A DNA stretch of 26,314 nucleotides from a virus, in the IMG/VR virus record IMGVR_UViG_3300024344_000110, positions 1 to 26,314 of that record. One strand, given 5' to 3'. The translations under genes and the position numbers were made by a program. The notes beneath the pieces were generated by a model. That model worked only from the letters and a program-made list of their open reading frames with translations, did not search any database and was not told the origin of the DNA. Positions 3,735 through 26,314 of this stretch are shown here, one piece after another; position 1 is the stretch's first letter, and each line of letters starts with the position of its first letter.

Positions 3735-3879
3735 GCGGTTTTTTCTTTTTTTCTTTTTTTCTTTTTTTCTTTTTTTCGCTTGTAGATTGTATATTTTTTA
3801 CGGGGTATCCGTTGGCCTTTAACCACTCAATATGTAGCGCCAATAGCTTTCGCATTGGCGGGCCTGCTTTGCGGGTCAT
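3706..3879 (-). CDS. Small protein with octamer-encoded Lys-rich tail, 57 aa
   Basis: The ATG overlaps the stop of the preceding gene as TAATG. The first 33 residues look like genuine protein (MTRKAGPPMRKLLALHIEWL, then KANGYPVKNIQ). The next 14 residues are a Lys/Arg/Glu run produced by the T7C array read on this strand, and the last ten (PLAINLKIII) run through the downstream promoter. Because the repeat unit is 8 bp, gain or loss of a unit would change the reading frame of the tail. I see no homologue from memory. The basic tail could bind nucleic acid, or the functional part may end before it. The gene is short enough to be missed by common length filters. Confidence 0.5.
   Translation of the reverse strand: MTRKAGPPMRKLLALHIEWLKANGYPVKNIQSTSEKKKKRKKEKKKKPLAINLKIII
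3739..3777. repeat. T7C octamer tandem array (copy 2)
   Basis: Cytosines at 3745, 3753, 3761, 3769 and 3777 give the same 8-bp period as the array at 72-130. The unit is identical at the two loci, 3.6 kb apart. Here it lies within the frame of the 57-aa gene and just upstream of the promoter for the 196-aa gene. Confidence 0.9.
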
Positions 3880-5892: not shown

Positions 5893-7362
5893 ATGCAAAT
5901 TGATCTAGATAAAATAAAAAAACTCCCACCTGATATAAGAAAAGATTTCATGAAAATGGCTGTAAAGCTTGATGAAAAGAAAAAGATATCCAAAGTTAAA
6001 GATGACTTCCTGTCATTTGCCAAACACATGTGGCCAGAGTTTATCGAAGGTCGACACCATAAAATTATTGGAGATAAGTTTAACCAGATAGCACAAGGCA
6101 AAATCAAGAGATTGATCGTCAATATGCCGCCAAGACATACAAAGTCCGAGTTCGCCAGCTCCCTGCTGCCCGCTTGGATGATCGGTAGAAACCCGAAACT
6201 AAAAATTATTCAAACGACCCACACCGGAGAACTAGCTATTAGATTCGGGCGTAAAGCTAAAACACTAATGGACACAGAAGATTATAAAAAAGTCTTTGAG
6301 ACAAGATTGAGGGAAGACAGTCAAGCAGCGGGTCGCTGGGAAACAGCACAGGGCGGTGAATACTTTGCATCTGGTGTAGGTGGAGCAATTACTGGTCGGG
6401 GTGCAGATTTATTAATCATTGACGATCCACACTCAGAGCAAGATGCGCTTAACATGACAGCATTAGAGCGAGCGTATGAATGGTATACATCCGGTCCACG
6501 TCAAAGGTTGCAGCCAGGTGGTGCGATCGTTTGTGTAATGACAAGATGGAACGTTAAAGATCTAACAGGTCAATTATTAAAACATCAAAAAGAAGCAAAA
6601 GCAGATCAGTGGGAGCTGATAGAGTTTCCTGCAATCATGCCTTCGAATAAACCAGTATGGCCTGAGTATTGGCAGCTAAAAGAATTAGAAACAGTTAAAG
6701 CATCACTATCAATTGGTAAGTGGAATGCACAATGGATGCAGAACCCAACTAGTGAAGAAGGCGCAATCATCAAAAGAGAATGGTGGAACGTTTGGGAGAA
6801 AGATGAAATGCCAGCTTTAGAACATGTCATACAATCATACGATACTGCATTCATGAAAAAGGAAACAGCCGACTATAGTGCAATTACAACATGGGGTATC
6901 TTTAGAGAATCTGAAGACAGCCCGCAGCAGTTAATATTGGTTGATGCATTAAAAGGTAGATACGAGTTCCCCGAACTTCGTCGCGTTGCAAAAGAACAAT
7001 ATGACTATTGGAAACCTGAAACGGTATTAATTGAAGCTAAAGCCAGTGGATTGCCACTAACCTACGAGCTTAGAAATATGGGGATACCGGTAGTTAATTT
7101 CACACCGTCAAAAGGAAACGATAAGCATGCCCGTGTAAATGCAGTTGCACCTTTGTTTGAATCTGGTATGGTGTGGGCTCCTGAAGAAAAGTTCGCAGAA
7201 GAGGTTATTGAAGAGTGTGCAGCTTTTCCATACGGGGATCATGATGACTTGGTTGATAGTATGACCCAAGCTGTTATGCGGTTTAGACAAGGAGGGTTGG
7301 TACCGCATCCTGAAGACTATGAAGAAGAAAAAATTATAAAAACAAAAAGAACTTATTACTAA
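5893..7362 (+). CDS. terL: Terminase large subunit (ATPase and nuclease)
   Basis: This is the motor that cuts concatemeric DNA and pumps it through the portal. The ATPase domain shows a Walker A-type MPPRHTKSE (78-86), a Walker B LLIIDD (173-178) and a coupling-type MTRWN (216-220). The RNase H-like nuclease domain shows SYDTAF (D317), LIEAK (E381) and GDHDDLVDS (D451/D452/D455). The length of 489 aa is normal for the family. Unusually, there is no Shine-Dalgarno sequence: the ATG follows TTTTTTTCAAA, and an in-frame TAA lies close upstream. The next in-frame ATG (codon 20) is an alternative start. The stop overlaps the next gene (TAATG). No small terminase subunit is recognisable beside it. 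Confidence 0.95.
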   Translation: MQIDLDKIKKLPPDIRKDFMKMAVKLDEKKKISKVKDDFLSFAKHMWPEFIEGRHHKIIGDKFNQIAQGKIKRLIVNMPPRHTKSEFASSLLPAWMIGRNPKLKIIQTTHTGELAIRFGRKAKTLMDTEDYKKVFETRLREDSQAAGRWETAQGGEYFASGVGGAITGRGADLLIIDDPHSEQDALNMTALERAYEWYTSGPRQRLQPGGAIVCVMTRWNVKDLTGQLLKHQKEAKADQWELIEFPAIMPSNKPVWPEYWQLKELETVKASLSIGKWNAQWMQNPTSEEGAIIKREWWNVWEKDEMPALEHVIQSYDTAFMKKETADYSAITTWGIFRESEDSPQQLILVDALKGRYEFPELRRVAKEQYDYWKPETVLIEAKASGLPLTYELRNMGIPVVNFTPSKGNDKHARVNAVAPLFESGMVWAPEEKFAEEVIEECAAFPYGDHDDLVDSMTQAVMRFRQGGLVPHPEDYEEEKIIKTKRTYY

Positions 7363-7640
7363 TGTCAGAACTAACAGATAAATATTCAAAAAATTTTAGT
7401 CCAGAACGAAAAAAAGAATTTGAAAAACGTGTACGTGAGATAGGTGCTGATATGTCAGAACTATCAGCTATACAATATGTTTTAGCAGAAATGAGAAGTG
7501 AAATGAAATTAGGCGGTAGAGTAGACAAGCCACTAGGAGCGGGTGGCAAGAAATCAGGACCACCACCTAAATCAGGACCTAATCCACAGGGCTTGAATAT
7601 TAAGAGTAATACTGTTAAGACAGTGAAACTGGAGAAATAA
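7362..7640 (+). CDS. Small protein between terminase and portal, 92 aa
   Basis: The first half is a charged helical region (KNFSPERKKEFEKRVREIGA). The second half is glycine-, lysine- and proline-rich and disordered (LGGRVDKPLGAGGKKSGPPP). The GGRVDK element resembles GGMVDK in the 62-aa gene at 10507, and similar short Gly-rich peptides are common in marine phages. The start overlaps the terminase stop (TAATG) with no good ribosome-binding site, so coupling is likely, and the stop directly abuts the portal ATG. Its place suggests a packaging accessory role, but no family is recognised. Confidence 0.75.
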   Translation: MSELTDKYSKNFSPERKKEFEKRVREIGADMSELSAIQYVLAEMRSEMKLGGRVDKPLGAGGKKSGPPPKSGPNPQGLNIKSNTVKTVKLEK

Positions 7641-11186: not shown

Positions 11187-11423
11187 ATGATGGACCCATT
11201 AACTGTTGTTTCTAAAATACAAAAAAACATGAGGGACAACTTACAAAGAATCGGCGACACCATGATTAGTGGTGGAGTTGACAACATGGAAAAATATCAG
11301 TATATGTTAGGACAAGCAAGAACTTATCAATATCTATTACAGGAAATCTCTAACCTGCTAGAAGAAAAGGAGCAAAAAAATGAAGGAAACGTCGTCGGAA
11401 TCAACGGAAGTACCAAAAATTAA
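11187..11423 (+). CDS. Small helical protein of unknown function, 78 aa
   Basis: The protein starts MMDPLTVVSKIQKNMRDNLQ. A helical segment with KYQYMLGQARTYQYLLQEIS and a short acidic stretch follow. The pattern is common in marine phage head modules, but I know no function. The ATG follows the upstream stop by one base. ATG 11187 and ATG 11190 are both possible. The last 44 bases overlap the co-chaperonin gene in a different frame, and the AAGGAG of the co-chaperonin lies within this gene. Confidence 0.7.
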   Translation: MMDPLTVVSKIQKNMRDNLQRIGDTMISGGVDNMEKYQYMLGQARTYQYLLQEISNLLEEKEQKNEGNVVGINGSTKN

Positions 11424-11838
11424 ATTTGGTCTTCAAGACAAATACAAAAAAGAAGCTAAAGGTGAACCAGAACCTTTAAATCCAGAAAATATTAAAAAAC
11501 AAAAAGAACAGCTGCCCGATCCTAGTGGCTGGCGACTACTTGTGTTACCATTTACACCTAAAGAAAAAACTAAAGGTGGTATAATTATTGCACAAGAGTC
11601 TTTAGAAAAATTAAGAATTGCAACTAACTGTGGTTACGTTTTAAAAGTAGGGCCATTAGCTTATTTTGACAAAGAAAAGTTTCCAACAGGAGCTTGGTGT
11701 AAAAAAGGAGATTGGGTAATTTTTGCTCGTTATGCAGGATCAAGATTACCTATCGAAGGCGGCGAAGTCCGTCTATTAAATGACGACGAAGTTTTGGGTA
11801 CAATAAGTAATCCAGAATCCGTGCTGCATAATATTTAA
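11380..11838 (+). CDS. GroES-type co-chaperonin, 152 aa
   Basis: Residues 47-152 read as a GroES fold: a first strand WRLLVLPF (51-58), a mobile loop TPKEKTKGGIIIAQES (59-74) with GGIII in place of the usual GGIVL, then GYVLKVGPLAY (85-95), KKGDWVIFARYAGSRL (108-123) and a final strand VRLLNDDEVLG. GroES is about 97 residues, and the extra N-terminal 45 residues here are charged and probably flexible. The protein should cap host GroEL, as T4 gp31 does for its capsid protein. It sits directly before the scaffold-like and capsid genes. AAGGAG lies 7 nt upstream of the ATG. The start overlaps the preceding gene by 44 nt. Confidence 0.88.
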   Translation: MKETSSESTEVPKIKFGLQDKYKKEAKGEPEPLNPENIKKQKEQLPDPSGWRLLVLPFTPKEKTKGGIIIAQESLEKLRIATNCGYVLKVGPLAYFDKEKFPTGAWCKKGDWVIFARYAGSRLPIEGGEVRLLNDDEVLGTISNPESVLHNI

Positions 11839-17828: not shown

Positions 17829-18533
17829 ATGGCAGGATTAAGTGCATCAGGATTAAAAACACAAATAAAAAGCTATACAGAAGTTAGCTCTACAGTGCTA
17901 TCTGATAGTGTTTTAGAAAACATAATATTAAATGCACAGTATAGAATTTTTAGAGATATTCCTGTTGATGCTGATAGAAAAACATCTACAGGTAATTTTA
18001 CATCTGGAACAGGCACTGTAACAGTTCCTGCAGGAGCTGTATTTGTTAGAGCAGTGCAAGTTTATACTGCAACTGGATCTACTTATACTGGAGCTAATAC
18101 ATATTTAGAAAAAAGAGATTTAACATTTTTAGAGGAATATATTTCAGCAACTACATCTACTGGCACACCAAAATATTATGCAATGTTAGATACTGGGGCT
18201 ACTGGAGAAAGCTCATCAAACTCTGGATCTATAATTGTATCACCAACACCAAGCGGGACGTTTGCTTATAAAATTCACTACAACGCAGCTCCAGCATTAT
18301 TAGAAAATAATGATACTAATTATATTAGTATGAATTTTCCAAATGGTCTGCTATATTGTTGCCTAGCAGAAACTTATGGTTTCTTGAAAGGCCCAGCTGA
18401 TATGCTGCAATTATACGAACAAAAATACCAACAAGAAGTACAAAAATTTGGAGGAGAACAACTAGGTAGAAGACGAAGAGATGACTATACAGATGGAACA
18501 GTTAGAATACCAGTCAACTCACCAACACCTTAA
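17829..18533 (+). CDS. Second adaptor-like tail protein, 234 aa
   Basis: The N-terminus (LSDSVLENIILNAQYRIFRD) and the beta-sandwich-like middle (GTVTVPAGAVFVRAVQVYT) resemble the first adaptor at 16518. C-terminal helices (LLYCCLAETYGFLKGPADML, then YEQKYQQEVQKFGGEQLGRR) also match that pattern. It is likely a second ring protein of the tail machine, similar in role to tail tubular or SU10-type adaptors. No good ribosome-binding site is visible one base after the upstream stop, so coupling is likely. Confidence 0.68.
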   Translation: MAGLSASGLKTQIKSYTEVSSTVLSDSVLENIILNAQYRIFRDIPVDADRKTSTGNFTSGTGTVTVPAGAVFVRAVQVYTATGSTYTGANTYLEKRDLTFLEEYISATTSTGTPKYYAMLDTGATGESSSNSGSIIVSPTPSGTFAYKIHYNAAPALLENNDTNYISMNFPNGLLYCCLAETYGFLKGPADMLQLYEQKYQQEVQKFGGEQLGRRRRDDYTDGTVRIPVNSPTP

Positions 18534-18543
18534 GGAATAAATT

Positions 18544-21500
18544 ATGGCATCAAGTTATACAGATATTGGAACAGAGTTAATGGCAACTGGCGAAAATGCC
18601 GGAACTTGGGGAACAAAAACTAATACCAATATACAGATTTTAGAAGAAGCAATTAATGGTTACGTGTCACAAGCTTTAACAAGTGGTGGTACAGTATCTT
18701 TAACTTATACAGATGGCTCAACAGGAGACGTAGCTCGTCACGCGGTTATAGCATTAACAGGGACAATTACTGGTAATGCAGTAGTTACAGTTCCAGCTAA
18801 TGAAAAAGTTTGGATTATAGATAACCAAAGTTCAGGTGCATACACTGTTACAGTAAAAGTATCTGGCCAGACTGGAGTTACTTGGGGAGCATCAGATAAA
18901 GGAACAAAAATTTTATACGCTAATGGTACAGATGTTGTTGACACAAGTATCGGAGGTGTGGGCGCTTATGATTTAAATGGCGGAGAATTAATTTTAGATG
19001 CTGATGCTGATACAAGTATTACAGCAGATACAGATGATCAAATAGATATTAAAATTGCAGGAGCTGATGATTTTCAATTTACTGCAAATACTTTTACAGC
19101 GCAATCAGGTAGCACGATTGCTGCACAAGCACTAACTGCTACTACAGTTACAGCTAGTGGTATTGTAAAAACAGATGATACTACTGAAGCAACTTCTACA
19201 ACAGATGGCTCATTACAAACTGATGGTGGTTTATCTGTAGCAAAAGATGCTGTTATAGGCGATGATCTTAAACTATTAAGCGACTCTGCAGTATTAAGTT
19301 TTGGTGCAGATTCAGATACAACTTTAACTCACACAGATGGTACAGGATTAACTTTAAATAGCACTAACAAACTTCTTTTTAGAGATACTGGTTTATATAT
19401 TAATTCATCTACAGATGGTCAATTAGATATTGTTGCAGACACAGAAGTACAAATAGCAGCTACGACAATAGATATTAATGGTGCTGTTGCACTTAACGGT
19501 GCAATTACTGGCGCTACTAATATTACTTTATCAGGTGAATTAGATGCAGCTACAGGAGATTTTTCTGGTGATGTTGATGTAGATGGAACTTTAGAAACAG
19601 ATGCATTATCAATAAATAGCACAACAATAACTACAACAGCAGCAGAAATTAATTTAATAGATGGTGGTACTGCAAGAGGTACTACAGCAGTTGCAGATGG
19701 AGATGGTTTACTTGTAAATGACGCTGGCACAATGAGAATGACTAATGTCACAACATTAAAAACATATTTTCAAGAAGGAATATCAACTGCGTTTGATGAT
19801 TTAACTGCAGGAGATGCTGCTGTTACTATATCAACTACGTCTGGAAACATTACAATTGATGCTACAGCAAATGATACAGATATTATATTTAAAGGAACAG
19901 ATAACAATTCCGATATTACTATGCTTACACTTGATGGTAGTGAAGCAGGAGCAGCTACATTTAACAATAAAGTTGTAGCTACAGAATTAGATATTTCAGG
20001 GGATGTTGATATTGATGGTACATTAGAAACAGATGCTATAACTCTTGACGGATCAGCTTTTATTAAACTTGCAGGGACAAATTTTACAGGATCATTATTA
20101 CTTGGTCATGCAACAACAGGAACTTTAGATGCAGCTCAATATAATACTGGAGTTGGTCTTACAGCTTTAGATGCTATTACTAGTGGAGATAATAATACAG
20201 CACTTGGTTATGGTGCTTTAACAGCTGTTACATCAGGAGGAAGAAATGTCGCTCTTGGAGTTAATGCAATGGTAGCTTTAACAAGTGGTCAACAAAACGT
20301 AGCAATAGGTCATGGTGCAGTTGATAATACTAATGCTAGCTATAATGTTGGCGTTGGTACTGATGCTTTAACAGATGCAACAGGGACTTCTAATACTGCT
20401 TTTGGACATAGGGCTGGATATGACATTTCTAGTGGAGATTATAATATTACTGTTGGTTATTTAGCTGGCGATAATATTACATCAGGTTCTGGTAATGTTG
20501 TTATTGGAAAAGCAGATGTTTCAAGTGCAACAGGTGATGACCAATTATCAATATCCGATGGTGAAGATGGATCAGTTGCTTGGATAACTGGTGACAGTTC
20601 AGGAAATTTAACTTTTGCTGCTGATGTTACGGTTGGCGATGATTTAAATTTAACAACAGATTCTTCAGTAATTACTTTTGGTGCAGACTCAGATACAACA
20701 TTAACTCACACTGATGGTACAGGTTTAACTTTAAATTCTACAAACAAATTATGTTTTAATGACGCTTCACAATTTATTCATGCTCCAAGTGCAACAGTAT
20801 TAGATATTGCTGCTACAGATGAAATAGAATTGACTGCTACCGAAGTAGAAATAAATGCAACATCAATAGATATAAATGGAAATACAGATATTCAAAACGA
20901 TTTAAATATTGGTGGAAATACGCAATACACCGCTGATGGAGTAGAAGTTAAATTTGGAGCAAATAGTGATGTAAGATTAATACATGAACATGATGTTGGG
21001 TTAAAATTAAAACATACAGCTACAGGCGATGATAAACCTGTTAAACTTACATTACAAACTGGTGAAACAGATATTGCAGCAGATGATGTAATAGGAGCTA
21101 TAAACTTTCAAGCACCCGATGAAGCAACAGGCACTGATGCAATATTAGTTGCAGCAGGTATTGAAGCAGTATCAGAAGGTGACTTTAGTTCATCAAGTAA
21201 TGCTACAAAACTAAGTTTTAAAACAGGAGCAAGTGAGGCAGCAGCTGAGAAGATGTCATTATCTTCTGCTGGTGTGTTAACAGTTTCAAGTACAATAACA
21301 GCAAACAGTCAAGATGTTATTTTAGGAAAATTTGGTGGAACTAATTTTTCAAACTCAATGTTAATTGGTCATGCAACAACAGGAACTTTAAGCACAGCTA
21401 CAAATAATATTGGTATTGGAGTTACAACTTTAGACGCATTAACGTCAGGAGATAAAAATGTGGCAGTTGGTGTTTCTGCTCTTACCGCTTGTACTGAAGG

Positions 21501-22458
21501 ACTTCGTAATTTAGCGTTTGGAAATGAATCTTTAGAAGGTGTTACAACTGGTGATGATAACGTTGGTATAGGTGATAGCGCTGGTTATTACAATTCAACT
21601 GGTGATTTAAACGTTGCAATTGGAAAAAGTGCTATGCAAGGTGCATCAGGTCAAAGTAATTCTCACAATACTGCTATAGGAGGAGATGCTTTTAAAGTTA
21701 TAACTACTGGAGGTCGTAATATTGGAATTGGTTATCAAGCTGGGGATAATTTAACTTCTGGTTCTGGTAATGTTATAATTGGAAGTGTTGATGCTGGTAG
21801 TGCTACTGGATCAAGACAATTACTAATTTCTGGTAACGATGGCTCAACAACTACAACTTGGATATCAGGAGATAATAATGGTGTTGTAACACTTGCAGAT
21901 GATTTAGTAATTAAAGATGGCGGTACGATAGGTGTATCTAGTGATGCAGATGCAATAACAATAGCATCAAATGGTGCTGTAACATTTTCACAAACACCTG
22001 TATTTCCAGATGGAAGTATAGCTGTAGCAGATTTAGATATTGATGGTGCAACAGATATAGGTGAAGATTTAGTTGATGCAGATTTATTTATAGTTGATAA
22101 TGGAGCAGGTGGAACTAATAGAAAAGTTGCTGCATCTAGAGTTAAGACATATATTGGTGGTGGTACATCATGGCAAGCAGTTAAGACAGGAAATTTTACA
22201 GCATCAGCAGGACAAGGTGTATTTGTAAATACAACGTCAGCTGCAATTACAATTACACTTCCAGCAGGAACTATTGGAGATGAAGTATCTATTGTAGATT
22301 ACGCTGGAACTTTTGATTCTAATGCATGCACAATAGCAGCTAATGGTTCAGAAAAAATATTTGGATCTACAGATGATTTAACAGTATCAACAGAAAGAGC
22401 TGCCTTTACTTTAGTATTTACTGATTCAACACAAGGTTGGCTATTCAAGAATGATTAA
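18544..22458 (+). CDS. Large repetitive tail fibre, 1304 aa
   Basis: The N-terminal 40 residues (YTDIGTELMATGENAGTWGT) match the virion-attachment segment common in marine phage fibres. The body is Thr/Asp/Gly-rich beta repeats. A block beginning FGADSDTTLTHTDGTGLTLN occurs near residues 253 and 712. A block beginning with (L/F)xGTNF and GHATTGTL and containing NTALGYGALTAVTSGG-like repeats occurs near 509-690 and 930-1117. These short repeats resemble the beta-roll heads of trimeric adhesins. The last 95 residues (from WQAVKTGNFTASAGQG) form a C-terminal beta domain. No peptidase or hydrolase motif is visible. AAGGA precedes the ATG. The probable role is host recognition or carrying the kelch proteins. 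Confidence 0.82.
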   Translation: MASSYTDIGTELMATGENAGTWGTKTNTNIQILEEAINGYVSQALTSGGTVSLTYTDGSTGDVARHAVIALTGTITGNAVVTVPANEKVWIIDNQSSGAYTVTVKVSGQTGVTWGASDKGTKILYANGTDVVDTSIGGVGAYDLNGGELILDADADTSITADTDDQIDIKIAGADDFQFTANTFTAQSGSTIAAQALTATTVTASGIVKTDDTTEATSTTDGSLQTDGGLSVAKDAVIGDDLKLLSDSAVLSFGADSDTTLTHTDGTGLTLNSTNKLLFRDTGLYINSSTDGQLDIVADTEVQIAATTIDINGAVALNGAITGATNITLSGELDAATGDFSGDVDVDGTLETDALSINSTTITTTAAEINLIDGGTARGTTAVADGDGLLVNDAGTMRMTNVTTLKTYFQEGISTAFDDLTAGDAAVTISTTSGNITIDATANDTDIIFKGTDNNSDITMLTLDGSEAGAATFNNKVVATELDISGDVDIDGTLETDAITLDGSAFIKLAGTNFTGSLLLGHATTGTLDAAQYNTGVGLTALDAITSGDNNTALGYGALTAVTSGGRNVALGVNAMVALTSGQQNVAIGHGAVDNTNASYNVGVGTDALTDATGTSNTAFGHRAGYDISSGDYNITVGYLAGDNITSGSGNVVIGKADVSSATGDDQLSISDGEDGSVAWITGDSSGNLTFAADVTVGDDLNLTTDSSVITFGADSDTTLTHTDGTGLTLNSTNKLCFNDASQFIHAPSATVLDIAATDEIELTATEVEINATSIDINGNTDIQNDLNIGGNTQYTADGVEVKFGANSDVRLIHEHDVGLKLKHTATGDDKPVKLTLQTGETDIAADDVIGAINFQAPDEATGTDAILVAAGIEAVSEGDFSSSSNATKLSFKTGASEAAAEKMSLSSAGVLTVSSTITANSQDVILGKFGGTNFSNSMLIGHATTGTLSTATNNIGIGVTTLDALTSGDKNVAVGVSALTACTEGLRNLAFGNESLEGVTTGDDNVGIGDSAGYYNSTGDLNVAIGKSAMQGASGQSNSHNTAIGGDAFKVITTGGRNIGIGYQAGDNLTSGSGNVIIGSVDAGSATGSRQLLISGNDGSTTTTWISGDNNGVVTLADDLVIKDGGTIGVSSDADAITIASNGAVTFSQTPVFPDGSIAVADLDIDGATDIGEDLVDADLFIVDNGAGGTNRKVAASRVKTYIGGGTSWQAVKTGNFTASAGQGVFVNTTSAAITITLPAGTIGDEVSIVDYAGTFDSNACTIAANGSEKIFGSTDDLTVSTERAAFTLVFTDSTQGWLFKND

Positions 22459-22470
22459 TAGGAGAATAGT

Positions 22471-23493
22471 ATGTCAACTTACAGACAAGTAAAAGGTTAC
22501 AATATAAAAAAAGTATCAAGTGATCCTTCTAACGTTAAAGAAGGACAAGTTTGGTATAATAGTTCTACTCAAAAATTAAATCTTGGACATCGTCTTGAAT
22601 CATGGTCTAGTGGTGGTAATTTAGGAACCGCTGGAACAGGTGTAGGCGGAGCTGGAACACAAACTGCTGGGCTAGCTTTTGGTAGAAGACAACCACCTGC
22701 AAGTCCAAACTACGTAGGTTTAACAGAAGAATATAATGGATCAAGTTGGACTGAAGTAAATAATTTAAATACAGGAAGAGCATACTTATCTGGCTGTGGA
22801 ACACAAACTGCAGCAATTGCGGCTGGAGGACACACAGGAGGAACGACTACTGATAAAACAGAATCTGAAGAATATGATGGAACCAATTGGGCAGAAGGAG
22901 ATGATTTAAATACAAATCGAAGACAGTATTCTATGTTTGGAATACAGACAGCGGCAGTTGGAGCTGGTGGATATGCAAGCCCAGGAAGTCCTGGACCACT
23001 TGGCGGTTTTTTAGTTAAAACAGAAGAATATAATGGTTCAAGTTGGACTACAGTTGAAGATTTACCAACAGCATTAAATAACCATGGAGCTGCGGGAACG
23101 TTAACAGCAGGTCTTGTATTTGGTGGTGAAGGAGGATCACCTCACCCAGAAGGAGCAGGAAATGTAGTTAGTTTAACTTGGGAATATGATGGAACTAATT
23201 ATGCATCTGGAGGTGCTTTAAATACAGGAAGAGGAAGTTTACTTACTGCAGGTGGAACACAAACTGCAACATGGGCAGCAGGTGGAGGAACACCTCCTGG
23301 AGCTTCAACTAATGTTGAACATTATAATGGCTCTACTTGGGTACTAGCACCTAGTATAGCATCTGGAAGAACTTTTGCTGGTCCAGCAAATGCAGCAGCA
23401 CAACCAGCAGGAATGATTTTTGGTGGAGGAAATTCTAATGCAACAGAAGAATTTTCATCTGCAGTATCAACAAGATCGGTGGATGTATCATGA
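22471..23493 (+). CDS. Kelch-like beta-propeller adhesin, six repeats, 340 aa
   Basis: The first 45 residues (SSDPSNVKEGQVWYNSSTQK) form an anchor shared with the two following paralogues. Six repeats of about 45 residues follow. Each has a GTQTAxxAxGG strand, then a TEEYNGSSWTEVNNLNTGR-like segment, with the sixth degenerate (AAQPAGMIFGGG). This is the pattern of kelch or galactose-oxidase-like propellers, and six blades make a closed domain. No catalytic residues are evident, so a glycan- or protein-binding receptor-recognition role is likely. GGAGAATAGT precedes the ATG. The stop overlaps the next gene (ATGA). Confidence 0.8.
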   Translation: MSTYRQVKGYNIKKVSSDPSNVKEGQVWYNSSTQKLNLGHRLESWSSGGNLGTAGTGVGGAGTQTAGLAFGRRQPPASPNYVGLTEEYNGSSWTEVNNLNTGRAYLSGCGTQTAAIAAGGHTGGTTTDKTESEEYDGTNWAEGDDLNTNRRQYSMFGIQTAAVGAGGYASPGSPGPLGGFLVKTEEYNGSSWTTVEDLPTALNNHGAAGTLTAGLVFGGEGGSPHPEGAGNVVSLTWEYDGTNYASGGALNTGRGSLLTAGGTQTATWAAGGGTPPGASTNVEHYNGSTWVLAPSIASGRTFAGPANAAAQPAGMIFGGGNSNATEEFSSAVSTRSVDVS

Positions 23494-25397
23494 CGGATTA
23501 TAAAAATATACACGGGAAAAGAGTTAAGTTTTTTACAAGTGATTTGGATAATACACAAGCAGAAGGACAAATATTTTATAGTGGTATAGACGCAACTGCA
23601 AGCGCCGTAGGTGCTTTTAATTTTAAAACAGCAGTAGCTATTTCTGCGTGGTCTAGTGCTTCACCATTTCTTACTGGAAGAACAACAGCTGGTGGAGCAG
23701 GGACTCAAACAGCGCATATAGGTTTTTCTGGATACTTATCAACTAATACACCAACTAATGTTACTGAAGAATATAATGGATCAGGTTGGTCAAATGGTGG
23801 TAATATGAACAATGGAAGAAAAGACCCCGCTGGAGCAGGCACACAAACTGCAACACTTGCTTTTGGTGGAGATGAAAGACCTCCAGGATCTAATAACGTA
23901 GCTCTTACAGAAGAATACAATGGAACTTCATGGTCCCCGCAAAATAATATGAATACAGGAAGAACTTCTGTAGGGTCTGCAGGAACTCAAACTGCAGGAC
24001 TTGGATTTGGAGGACCGGGTAGTTCAACGGCTACAGAAGAATACGATGGAACAAGTTGGACAAATAGTGGGGCTTTAAACTCTGGTAGAAATGGTATTAT
24101 TGGAATTGGCACTCAAACAGCCGCTGTAGGAGCTGGAGGATATACACCAGGTTATTTAGCTAATGTAGAACATTATAATGGATCAACTTGGACAGCAGCC
24201 ACTGCATTACCATCTGCTCAAGGAACTGGTGGTGGTGCTGGTATACAAACAGATGGTTTAATTTTTGGAGGATATGTTCCTCCAGGTCATACCGTAACAA
24301 ACAGAACATTAAATTATAATGGAACTTCTTGGACTGTTTCTCCAGCTACATTAGGAACTGCAAGAGGGTTAAGTGCTAATACGAGTTCAGCACCTTCTAG
24401 TGCAGCAATAGCCATGATGGGAGAAACAACTCCCACTAATACTTTAACAGAAGAATTTAATACAACTGCAAGCACAATTACAGGTGCTGCATGGGCAAGT
24501 GGTGGAAATATGCCTACTACTAAACTTAATGGTGGTCAAGGAATTGGAACAGAATTAGCAGCAGCAGTTTTTGGTGGAAACCAAACAACTATTACTTATC
24601 CTTATGTAAATACAACATATGAATATGATGGTTCATCTTGGGGCAGTGGTGGAAATATGAATAACACTGGATCATCTCATGGTGCTTTTGGAACTCAAAC
24701 AGCGGGAACTAAAATAGGTTCTTACATGTATCCACCAAATGTATCTACAACAAATGTTGAAGAGTATGACGGTAGTTCTTGGACAGCTAAACCAGCAATG
24801 AGTCAAACAAGATATGGAGCAGGTGGCGCTGGAATATCTACAGCAGGATTAGCTATGGGTGGAACAGCTAAATCTCCAGTAGTTGCTCTTACTGCAGTTG
24901 AAGAGTATGATGGTGAGGGATGGACTTCTGGAGGAGCCTTACCAGCTCATCATGAAAATTTTGCTTCAGGTGGAACTCAAACAGCGGCAATAGTTGCAGG
25001 AGGTCAAGACCCTGCTCCTCAATCAAATGGAGCTTCTGTTACTTCATACGATTATAATGGTTCAAGTTGGACATCAAATCCAAATATGAGTATAGATAAA
25101 GTTTATAATTTTGGAAATGGTGGTCCTGTTTCACAAACATCTTTTTTATCTGCTACAGGAAATACTGGTCCTGGAACAGCATCAAACAATTGTGAATTAT
25201 TTGATGGAACAAGTTGGGCTACAGCAGCAAGTGTTTCAACAGCAAGAAGTCAACACATGAATGCTCAACACGGCACTACGGGCACAAATGGAGCACTTAT
25301 AGCTGGTGGTAGACCACCTCCTACAGGAGTAAATACTTCTGAAGTATTTACAGCTGAAACAACAGCAGTAAATTTAAAGACTATAACAGATAGTTGA
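23490..25397 (+). CDS. Double kelch-like beta-propeller adhesin, twelve repeats, 635 aa
   Basis: The N-terminal anchor (IHGKRVKFFTSDLDNTQAEG, then QIFYSG) is homologous to that of the neighbouring genes. Twelve repeat strands can be counted (GTQTAHIGFSG, GTQTATLAFGG, GTQTAGLGFGG and so on). A linker near residue 340 (AAWASGGNMPTT) separates two sets of six, so the protein probably folds as two six-bladed propellers. Blades 6, 11 and 12 are degenerate, as expected at domain closure. It overlaps the previous gene by 4 nt. The likely role is receptor binding. It seems to be a duplicated version of the 340-aa protein. Confidence 0.8.
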   Translation: MTDYKNIHGKRVKFFTSDLDNTQAEGQIFYSGIDATASAVGAFNFKTAVAISAWSSASPFLTGRTTAGGAGTQTAHIGFSGYLSTNTPTNVTEEYNGSGWSNGGNMNNGRKDPAGAGTQTATLAFGGDERPPGSNNVALTEEYNGTSWSPQNNMNTGRTSVGSAGTQTAGLGFGGPGSSTATEEYDGTSWTNSGALNSGRNGIIGIGTQTAAVGAGGYTPGYLANVEHYNGSTWTAATALPSAQGTGGGAGIQTDGLIFGGYVPPGHTVTNRTLNYNGTSWTVSPATLGTARGLSANTSSAPSSAAIAMMGETTPTNTLTEEFNTTASTITGAAWASGGNMPTTKLNGGQGIGTELAAAVFGGNQTTITYPYVNTTYEYDGSSWGSGGNMNNTGSSHGAFGTQTAGTKIGSYMYPPNVSTTNVEEYDGSSWTAKPAMSQTRYGAGGAGISTAGLAMGGTAKSPVVALTAVEEYDGEGWTSGGALPAHHENFASGGTQTAAIVAGGQDPAPQSNGASVTSYDYNGSSWTSNPNMSIDKVYNFGNGGPVSQTSFLSATGNTGPGTASNNCELFDGTSWATAASVSTARSQHMNAQHGTTGTNGALIAGGRPPPTGVNTSEVFTAETTAVNLKTITDS

Positions 25398-25437
25398 TTT
25401 ATGATATTAATAAGCTATAAAAGGAAGGAGGATTAAT

Positions 25438-25767
25438 ATGGCACTATTTATATACGGCACAGCAAACAATACCGGAAAAGGATTTTTTACTCATGAAGAT
25501 AGATTAAACTTTTTCTTAAGAGGTTATTCAGGGCACGATGGATCTAATTATGTAGATACATGGGTTATTGGTAACAATGAAAAAGGAGCACTTTGGTTAG
25601 CTGAAAAAAGTGGAACCGAAAAAACTAAATCAGAAGCACAAGCTTTAGTTAAAGCATCTGATGATCTAGCCAGAACAGCTTGGGATAATGATAATGTTAG
25701 CGGTGAATCTGCAGATGAAAAAATTGCAAGAATTGGTGCAAAGCCTGGTTTCATAACAATCCCCTAA
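25438..25767 (+). CDS. Small protein of unknown function between kelch genes, 109 aa
   Basis: The protein begins MALFIYGTANNTGKGFFTHE. A mixed region (NFFLRGYSGHDGSNYVDTWV, then NNEKGALWLAEKSG) follows, then a charged helix (SEAQALVKASDDLARTAWDN) and a short end. It is not kelch-like. AAGGAGG precedes the ATG. Placed between adhesin genes, it may be a fibre chaperone, a connector or an independent morphon. I recognise no family. Confidence 0.72.
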   Translation: MALFIYGTANNTGKGFFTHEDRLNFFLRGYSGHDGSNYVDTWVIGNNEKGALWLAEKSGTEKTKSEAQALVKASDDLARTAWDNDNVSGESADEKIARIGAKPGFITIP

Positions 25768-25778
25768 AGGAATTTTAA

Positions 25779-26314
25779 ATGTCTACATATGAAGAATTAA
25801 AAGGACTGAAGGTTAAATATTTATCTTCTGATACTTCAGGAGATAGAATACAAGAAGGTGAAGTCTTTTATAATTCTTCTGATTTTAATCTTAAATCTTT
25901 TATAGCCACTGCTGCTTGGCATTCTGGTGCTAATATGTCTAATTCTAGAGATTCTGCAGCAGGAGGATGTGCTGCACCTACAGCAGCAGGAATAATTTTT
26001 GGTGGAGGAGATAGCACAGGTCATTTAGCTAAAACAGAAGAATATAATGGTTTAGGTTGGGGTTCTGGTGGAGATTTAAATACAGCAAGAGAAATTTTAG
26101 GAGGTGCAGGAACTCAAACTGCAGGTTTAGCTTTTGGTGGGCAAAAAGGAAGTCCTAACGCAAATGCAAATGAATCAGAAGAATATAATGGATCAAGTTG
26201 GACTGAAGGAGATAATCTAAACACAGCAAGATATATAGCAGGTGCAGGAACTCAAACAGCTGGATTAGGTTTTGGTGGTTATTCAATACCTGAAACTCTT
26301 CGAGCACATTCAGA
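25779..26314 (+). CDS. Third kelch-like adhesin (5' part; runs off the window)
   Basis: The frame is open from the ATG at 25779 to the window end, 178 full codons. AAAGGA lies 7 nt upstream. The N-terminus (EELKGLKVKYLSSDTSGDRI, then EGEVFYNSSDFNL) is homologous to the anchors of the two preceding kelch genes. At least three repeat strands are visible (APTAAGIIFGG, GTQTAGLAFGG, GTQTAGLGFGG), with EEYNGSSWTEGDNLNTAR between. The length and blade number beyond the window are unknown. Confidence 0.8.
   Translation, partial: MSTYEELKGLKVKYLSSDTSGDRIQEGEVFYNSSDFNLKSFIATAAWHSGANMSNSRDSAAGGCAAPTAAGIIFGGGDSTGHLAKTEEYNGLGWGSGGDLNTAREILGGAGTQTAGLAFGGQKGSPNANANESEEYNGSSWTEGDNLNTARYIAGAGTQTAGLGFGGYSIPETLRAHS

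Follow-up and report, generated by a model that had tools for sequence, protein, structure and literature searches.

Kelch-propeller genes of a pelagiphage relative: putative tail adhesins that appear to exchange whole propellers

Results

Three genes encoding kelch-propeller proteins lie at the right end of a linear IMG/VR virus record (IMGVR_UViG_3300024344_000110; 26,314 nucleotides (nt), GC content 35%), which was analysed over its whole length and is referred to here as the window. Blades and propellers were called with an iterated blade hidden Markov model (HMM) and a 269-column propeller HMM. Compared loci and contigs carry L-numbers, the kelch slots are named U2, U1 and D1, and P1 and P2 denote the first and second propeller of a gene. 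Kelch gene 1 (slot U2; 22471..23493, + strand, as are the other features of the kelch locus given below) encodes 340 amino acids (aa) and matches phrog_27227 (E 8e-55); its N-terminal anchor (22471..22596) closes a conserved island common to 11 relatives and is followed by one six-blade propeller (22597..23457). Kelch gene 2 (slot U1; 23490..25397), identified from its open reading frame (ORF), the HMMs and an AlphaFold2 model, starts within the stop of gene 1 (ATGA at 23490-23493) and encodes 635 aa: an anchor (23490..23642), propeller 1 (23643..24461), a linker (24462..24485) and propeller 2 (24486..25349), with borders from the propeller HMM. Between slots U1 and D1, in the window as in relatives, lies a small conserved gene of 109 aa that an earlier note on this DNA had left out, here called S (25438..25767). 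Kelch gene 3 (slot D1; 25779..26312) comprises an anchor and about 2.5 blades (propeller HMM columns 1-126, 122 bits) and is open at the contig end. Blade counts are far above chance, with six in gene 1, twelve in two sets of six in gene 2 and an incomplete set in gene 3. The counts given for the two complete genes in the earlier note therefore hold. The third gene does run off the window as it said, but the anchor is not the same one: the N-terminal anchors are slot-specific, though all of one family. The near-identical DNA words that it saw in the repeats are real as well, since GGAACWCAAACNGC, the coding sequence of the conserved GTQTA strand, occurs 11 times in the window with at most one mismatch, against 0.06 expected.

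The kelch signature is present in the HMMs and the consensus: the repeat occurs six times, is about 45-50 residues long and contains GG together with one Tyr and one Trp that are conserved. Searched against Pfam, the kelch proteins gave no hit. The AlphaFold2 model of the 635-aa protein, built on a 50-sequence alignment (predicted local distance difference test score (pLDDT) 83.7), contains two runs of four-stranded blades that form two propellers. The second half of the model superposes on solved six-blade kelch structures with Z scores of 30-32 and root-mean-square deviations of 2.0-2.4 Å over about 250 residues; the structures matched by this second propeller are the SAKe6 designs, NS1-BP, Keap1 and KLHL2. 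For the first propeller, the six-blade fold comes from the strand pattern and a KLHL12 match at residues 68-285. A profile search of PDB sequences with the A1 profile agrees with the fold match (SAKe6FR, E 2e-18; KLHL2, E 2e-17). The gene 2 protein is thus, in the predicted structure, two closed six-blade kelch propellers, as the earlier note had anticipated, and the gene 1 protein would be a single six-blade propeller by homology to the propeller HMM. Residues 1-43 of the 635-aa protein, the anchor, have low confidence in this monomer model, which would be expected if folding of the anchor requires oligomerisation or attachment to the virion.

The kelch proteins belong to phrog_27227, which has no family name, and relatives of ORF1 occur in at least 598 viral contigs, with an apparent 100% match to part of ORF3 in L205. 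With the low-complexity filter on, a tblastn search of 50,697 phage records with ORF1 and ORF2 as queries gave nothing useful, so that these records hold no close relative at that sensitivity. The relatives share a recurrent plan of kelch, kelch, a conserved gene of about 100 aa (S) and kelch. Written as propellers per gene, the commonest versions in 200 fetched loci, a count that includes redundant loci, are 1-2-S-2 (47 loci) and 2-2-S-2 (20). Nearly all closed ORFs contain one or two propellers; none was parsed as three, and two of about 1900 aa contain five six-blade propellers each (L114:7559-13270 and L017:8186-13996). Propeller number thus comes in whole sixes of blades, and the few odd blade counts are apparently parsing losses.

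The locus in the window reads as a mosaic. Conserved islands end close to propeller borders: the right ends of the island shared with 11 relatives fall at 22527-22623, against a gene 1 propeller start at 22597, and a central island (25326..25929) consisting of the C-terminus of gene 2, S and the anchor of gene 3, with a propeller border on each side, has left ends at 25326-25383 (n=20; border 25349) and right ends at 25816-25929 (n=19; border 25911). The three complete propellers have their closest counterparts in phages that differ from one propeller to the next, and for two of the three the counterpart occupies another slot. The gene 1 propeller is closest to D1.P2 of L027 and L028 (85-86% DNA identity) and propeller 2 of gene 2 to D1.P2 of L211 (68% aa identity). 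Propeller 1 of gene 2 is 98% identical in DNA over 811 nt to a propeller of L010, with diverged flanks; the L010 backbone is of another lineage than that of the window and close to L086 and L076. This 811-nt tract extends from approximately the first Trp codon as far as the TEE codons in the final blade. In structural terms it would end at the ring-closing strands, so that the exchanged unit would be a self-contained closed fold.

The same pattern recurs among the relatives. In 52 pairs of loci with conserved S and flank, the elements kept in place were S (100%), the downstream flank (89%), C-terminal tails (77%), anchors (75%) and propellers (13%). A conserved N-terminal attachment part combined with a variable distal part (75% vs 13%) is the arrangement of a tail receptor-binding protein. 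Across the locus, L149 and L150 are 90-97% identical; only two propeller positions depart from this, and a propeller of L149 turns up in a different slot of L150. We surveyed DNA tracts across 153 non-redundant loci. At 85% identity or more these fall into size classes of 100-200 nt (anchor), 780-900 nt (propeller) and 900-1100 nt (anchor plus propeller), with almost nothing in between apart from contig-end cuts. For tracts of at least 700 nt, 58 of 74 endpoints lie within 25 nt of a propeller border against 7.2 expected; some of these pairs depend on one another, and the length threshold is biased towards complete propellers. The propellers of L116 U2 and L086 D1 are 98% identical while their anchors are only 29% alike, one of several movements of propellers across genes, positions and phages that bear out the recombination between genes foreseen in the earlier note. 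The same propeller also occurs in a single- and a double-propeller gene (L047 U1.P2 and L079 D1, 90% DNA identity), and nearest neighbours retain the first or second position in the gene more often than the slot. Apparent swaps between one and two propellers in L010, L135 and L196 were set aside since those genes are cut by contig ends. Comparison of the loci shows that recombination with other phages and slots replaces propellers as wholes and not blade by blade, with breakpoints at propeller closure, and that anchors, tails, S and flanks are inherited with the backbone.

This exchange could be ordinary mosaicism, in which homologous recombination in anchors, linkers and flanks carries the propellers along and their role is structural only. 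Anchors, tails and S are conserved enough for recombination within a lineage, and 26 of the 42 tracts of at least 700 nt at 90% identity include the anchor. The other 16 exclude it, however, and propellers cross between slots whose anchors are only 26-50% alike; moreover, the propellers are the most variable element, with variation in their loops, which fits a binding role. We regard this account as possible but unlikely.

The earlier note had gone further and suggested that the shared words should also favour recombination between blades; in such an account, the repeated words would drive duplication and exchange blade by blade. The words do recur in most blades, and some relatives have alike blades, with a mean aa identity of up to 74%. 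Against this, the tract survey found no tract of at least 100 nt at 90% DNA identity inside a propeller, in 524 propellers the blades of a propeller all stay below 90% DNA identity to one another, and blade number is fixed at multiples of six. Matches shorter than 100 nt are numerous within propellers and reflect conserved motifs. The shared words are therefore not visibly driving recombination between blades, blades are exchanged seldom or not at all in the sample studied, and we consider a blade-by-blade process highly improbable. Below 75% identity, a blade-register test was uninformative, as the blades of some propellers lie near the consensus. Duplication of propellers within a gene, also proposed in that note, is not the usual route either: two propellers of one gene have a median identity of 38.8%, compared with 37.8% for propellers of different genes, and only 9 of 201 same-gene pairs reach 60%.

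Variation within propellers is concentrated in two loops. Over 544 propellers, the BC loop (after GG) and the DA loop (after TAR) have entropies of 3.21 and 3.59 bits against 1.76 in the core (p 1e-28), and in 54 recently shared pairs loops have a ratio of nonsynonymous to synonymous polymorphism (pN/pS) of 0.70-0.76 and the core one of 0.45, with a rough loop assignment. In Keap1, the peptide pocket is built from the BC and DA loops, which share one face of the propeller. This supports a binding face without proving it.

The gene neighbourhood is that of a tail module, with the kelch genes downstream of an SU10-type adaptor (17829-18533) and a fibre-like structural protein of 1304 aa (18544..22458, +; phrog_31104, E 6e-63, with weaker matches to virion-structural and tail-spike families). 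The C-terminal 101 aa of the latter are 73% identical in L010 and 71% identical in L211. Read by eye, this protein contains repeats of the NTALGYGAL...TSG type that are reminiscent of trimeric surface proteins. Position and loop variability together make receptor binding by the kelch propellers plausible. Propellers are generic binding scaffolds, and the proteins could instead belong to the head, as fibres or as decorations of the capsid with mucus, particles or glycans as ligands. We think this improbable, given that the kelch genes come after the tail adaptor and fibre-like protein and before other virion and accessory genes, and that the structural module of HTVC023P, as we read its sequence, has tandem Gly-rich paralogues resembling fibre tips.

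The S gene is well conserved (66% mean column identity, 65 members) and its AlphaFold2 model is confident (pLDDT 94.9). Fold searches of PDB and BFVD with this model gave no convincing match (best Z 4.0), a Pfam search returned nothing convincing, and no similarity to a known chaperone was detected by sequence or fold. A likeness to gp71 of HTVC027P is weak (hhalign probability 23%) and is not claimed. With low confidence, we list S as a candidate fibre chaperone or cap.

The window phage has a terminase 74% identical to that of HTVC027P and 63% to that of HTVC023P, a portal 70% and 53% identical, respectively, and a similar order of structural genes. By these three features it is a relative of the pelagiphages HTVC027P and HTVC023P. 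Both infect Pelagibacter strain HTCC1062, and a contig of the SAR11 single-cell genome SAG-MED28 (L206, 9083-10659) carries a homologue of the small gene (E 1e-25) followed directly by a six-blade kelch protein (E 2e-31); on these grounds SAR11, a group of highly abundant ocean bacteria, is the likely host. Three further features of the window were observed. A GroES (Cpn10) gene lies within the structural module (11380-11838), likewise in HTVC027P and HTVC023P. The interval between terminase and portal holds a single 92-aa gene (7362-7640), where HTVC027P has the two large genes gp41 and gp42. An 8-base T-rich unit forms perfect tandem runs at 72-129 and 3739-3777 (TTTTTTTC, TTTTTTCT).

Discussion

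We consider it likely that the kelch genes encode modular tail-fibre-tip adhesins of a podovirus-like pelagiphage, with a putative role in receptor binding, and that they are diversified by whole-propeller exchange. Each protein has a slot-specific N-terminal anchor, which would dock it on the virion, then one or two six-blade propellers, each closed on itself, and finally a short tail. One loop-lined face of the propellers may recognise receptors on the host surface, and a propeller swap would probably alter or broaden what the phage attaches to. Selection might retain only those recombinants with a complete closed propeller, in which case ordinary phage recombination could suffice and no dedicated enzyme would be required.

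The earlier note had envisaged a dedicated diversification system; in one such account, a recombinase, endonuclease or retroelement would shuffle cassettes at propeller borders. Breakpoints are indeed very precise and recur over many lineages and slots, and L090 has one propeller common to two slots of the same phage (89% DNA identity). But the sequence of the propeller borders shows no more conservation than that of motifs within each blade, so that no unique site stands out, and the same borders are to be expected from selection for closed folds. Where the cultured relatives were read, their annotation includes no such enzyme, the window itself being only part of a genome. A dedicated system is, in our judgement, quite doubtful. 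Variation comes in whole tracts of about 800 nt, unlike the adenine-directed changes in a variable repeat that mark a diversity-generating retroelement with its reverse transcriptase and template repeat; no search aimed at a reverse transcriptase was made.

Several points weigh against modular tail adhesins diversified by propeller exchange. Tracts of at least 700 nt hold most of a propeller by construction, so that the border statistic has to be taken together with the missing shorter interior tracts at 90% identity. The compared sequences are without exception contigs from metagenomes, and chimeric assembly could account for individual cases. Loop pN/pS remains below 1. We infer both virion presence and binding for proteins of the kelch family, and kelch propellers are absent from the regions read of HTVC027P, HTVC023P and 023Pt_psg01, so that the tail position is given by synteny only.

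Related arrangements are found in other phages. The Rak2-like phage vB_PcaM_CBB has three nearby kelch-type propeller genes, CBB_550, CBB_552 and CBB_554, of which CBB_552 was detected in the virion (PMC5259590). By its description this resembles the three nearby kelch genes of the window, but CBB is a jumbo myovirus, and the available part of the report mentions neither slots nor a small companion gene, nor that propellers are exchanged (PMC5259590). Gp45 of phi11 is a tail receptor-binding protein with a beta-propeller platform, whereas its propellers have five blades and it is a homotrimer with a helical stem and tower; in the part of the source available it is one gene, without tandem propellers or cassette exchange (PMC4901313). 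The BACON repeats of crAssphage are tail-associated tandem binding domains, of which separate domains are transferred horizontally and also duplicated, but they have another fold and are not closed propellers, and the accessible part of that work has no conserved slot anchors with cross-slot exchange (PMC6949934). Distant Alteromonas phages have in common a host-recognition module of a tail fibre and a chaperone as small partner; there, the whole module moves and the folds differ (PMC10579305), and S has no detected similarity to a known chaperone. HTVC027P and HTVC023P, despite homologous terminase and portal and a similar structural gene order, have no kelch propellers in the regions read; HTVC023P has instead four tandem glycine-rich paralogues ending in IRYKFQ (L209:19742-25438), a parallel array of fibre-tip-like proteins. 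The present system is set apart from the CBB, phi11 and crAss-like systems by its three-slot plan with a companion gene, its whole sixes of blades and the exchange of complete propellers across slots and lineages. We found no description of a kelch-S cassette in the open-access literature, subscription papers being mostly outside the scope of the search.

To our knowledge, how SAR11 phages recognise their hosts is not known. The locus provides concrete candidate receptor-binding domains for these phages, with defined exchange units, and offers a clean natural case in which recombination respects a closed protein fold with near base-pair precision in many environmental phages. Natural single-propeller swaps between near-identical phages make receptor specificity directly testable. 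More tentatively, and on balance we would not expect it, the phages may draw on a shared pool of closed-propeller cassettes, three to six per genome in conserved slots, whose border-directed reshuffling between slots and lineages gives combinatorial host recognition. If true, such a cassette pool would differ from the forms of host-recognition change known to date, which work by point mutation or by swaps of whole fibres.

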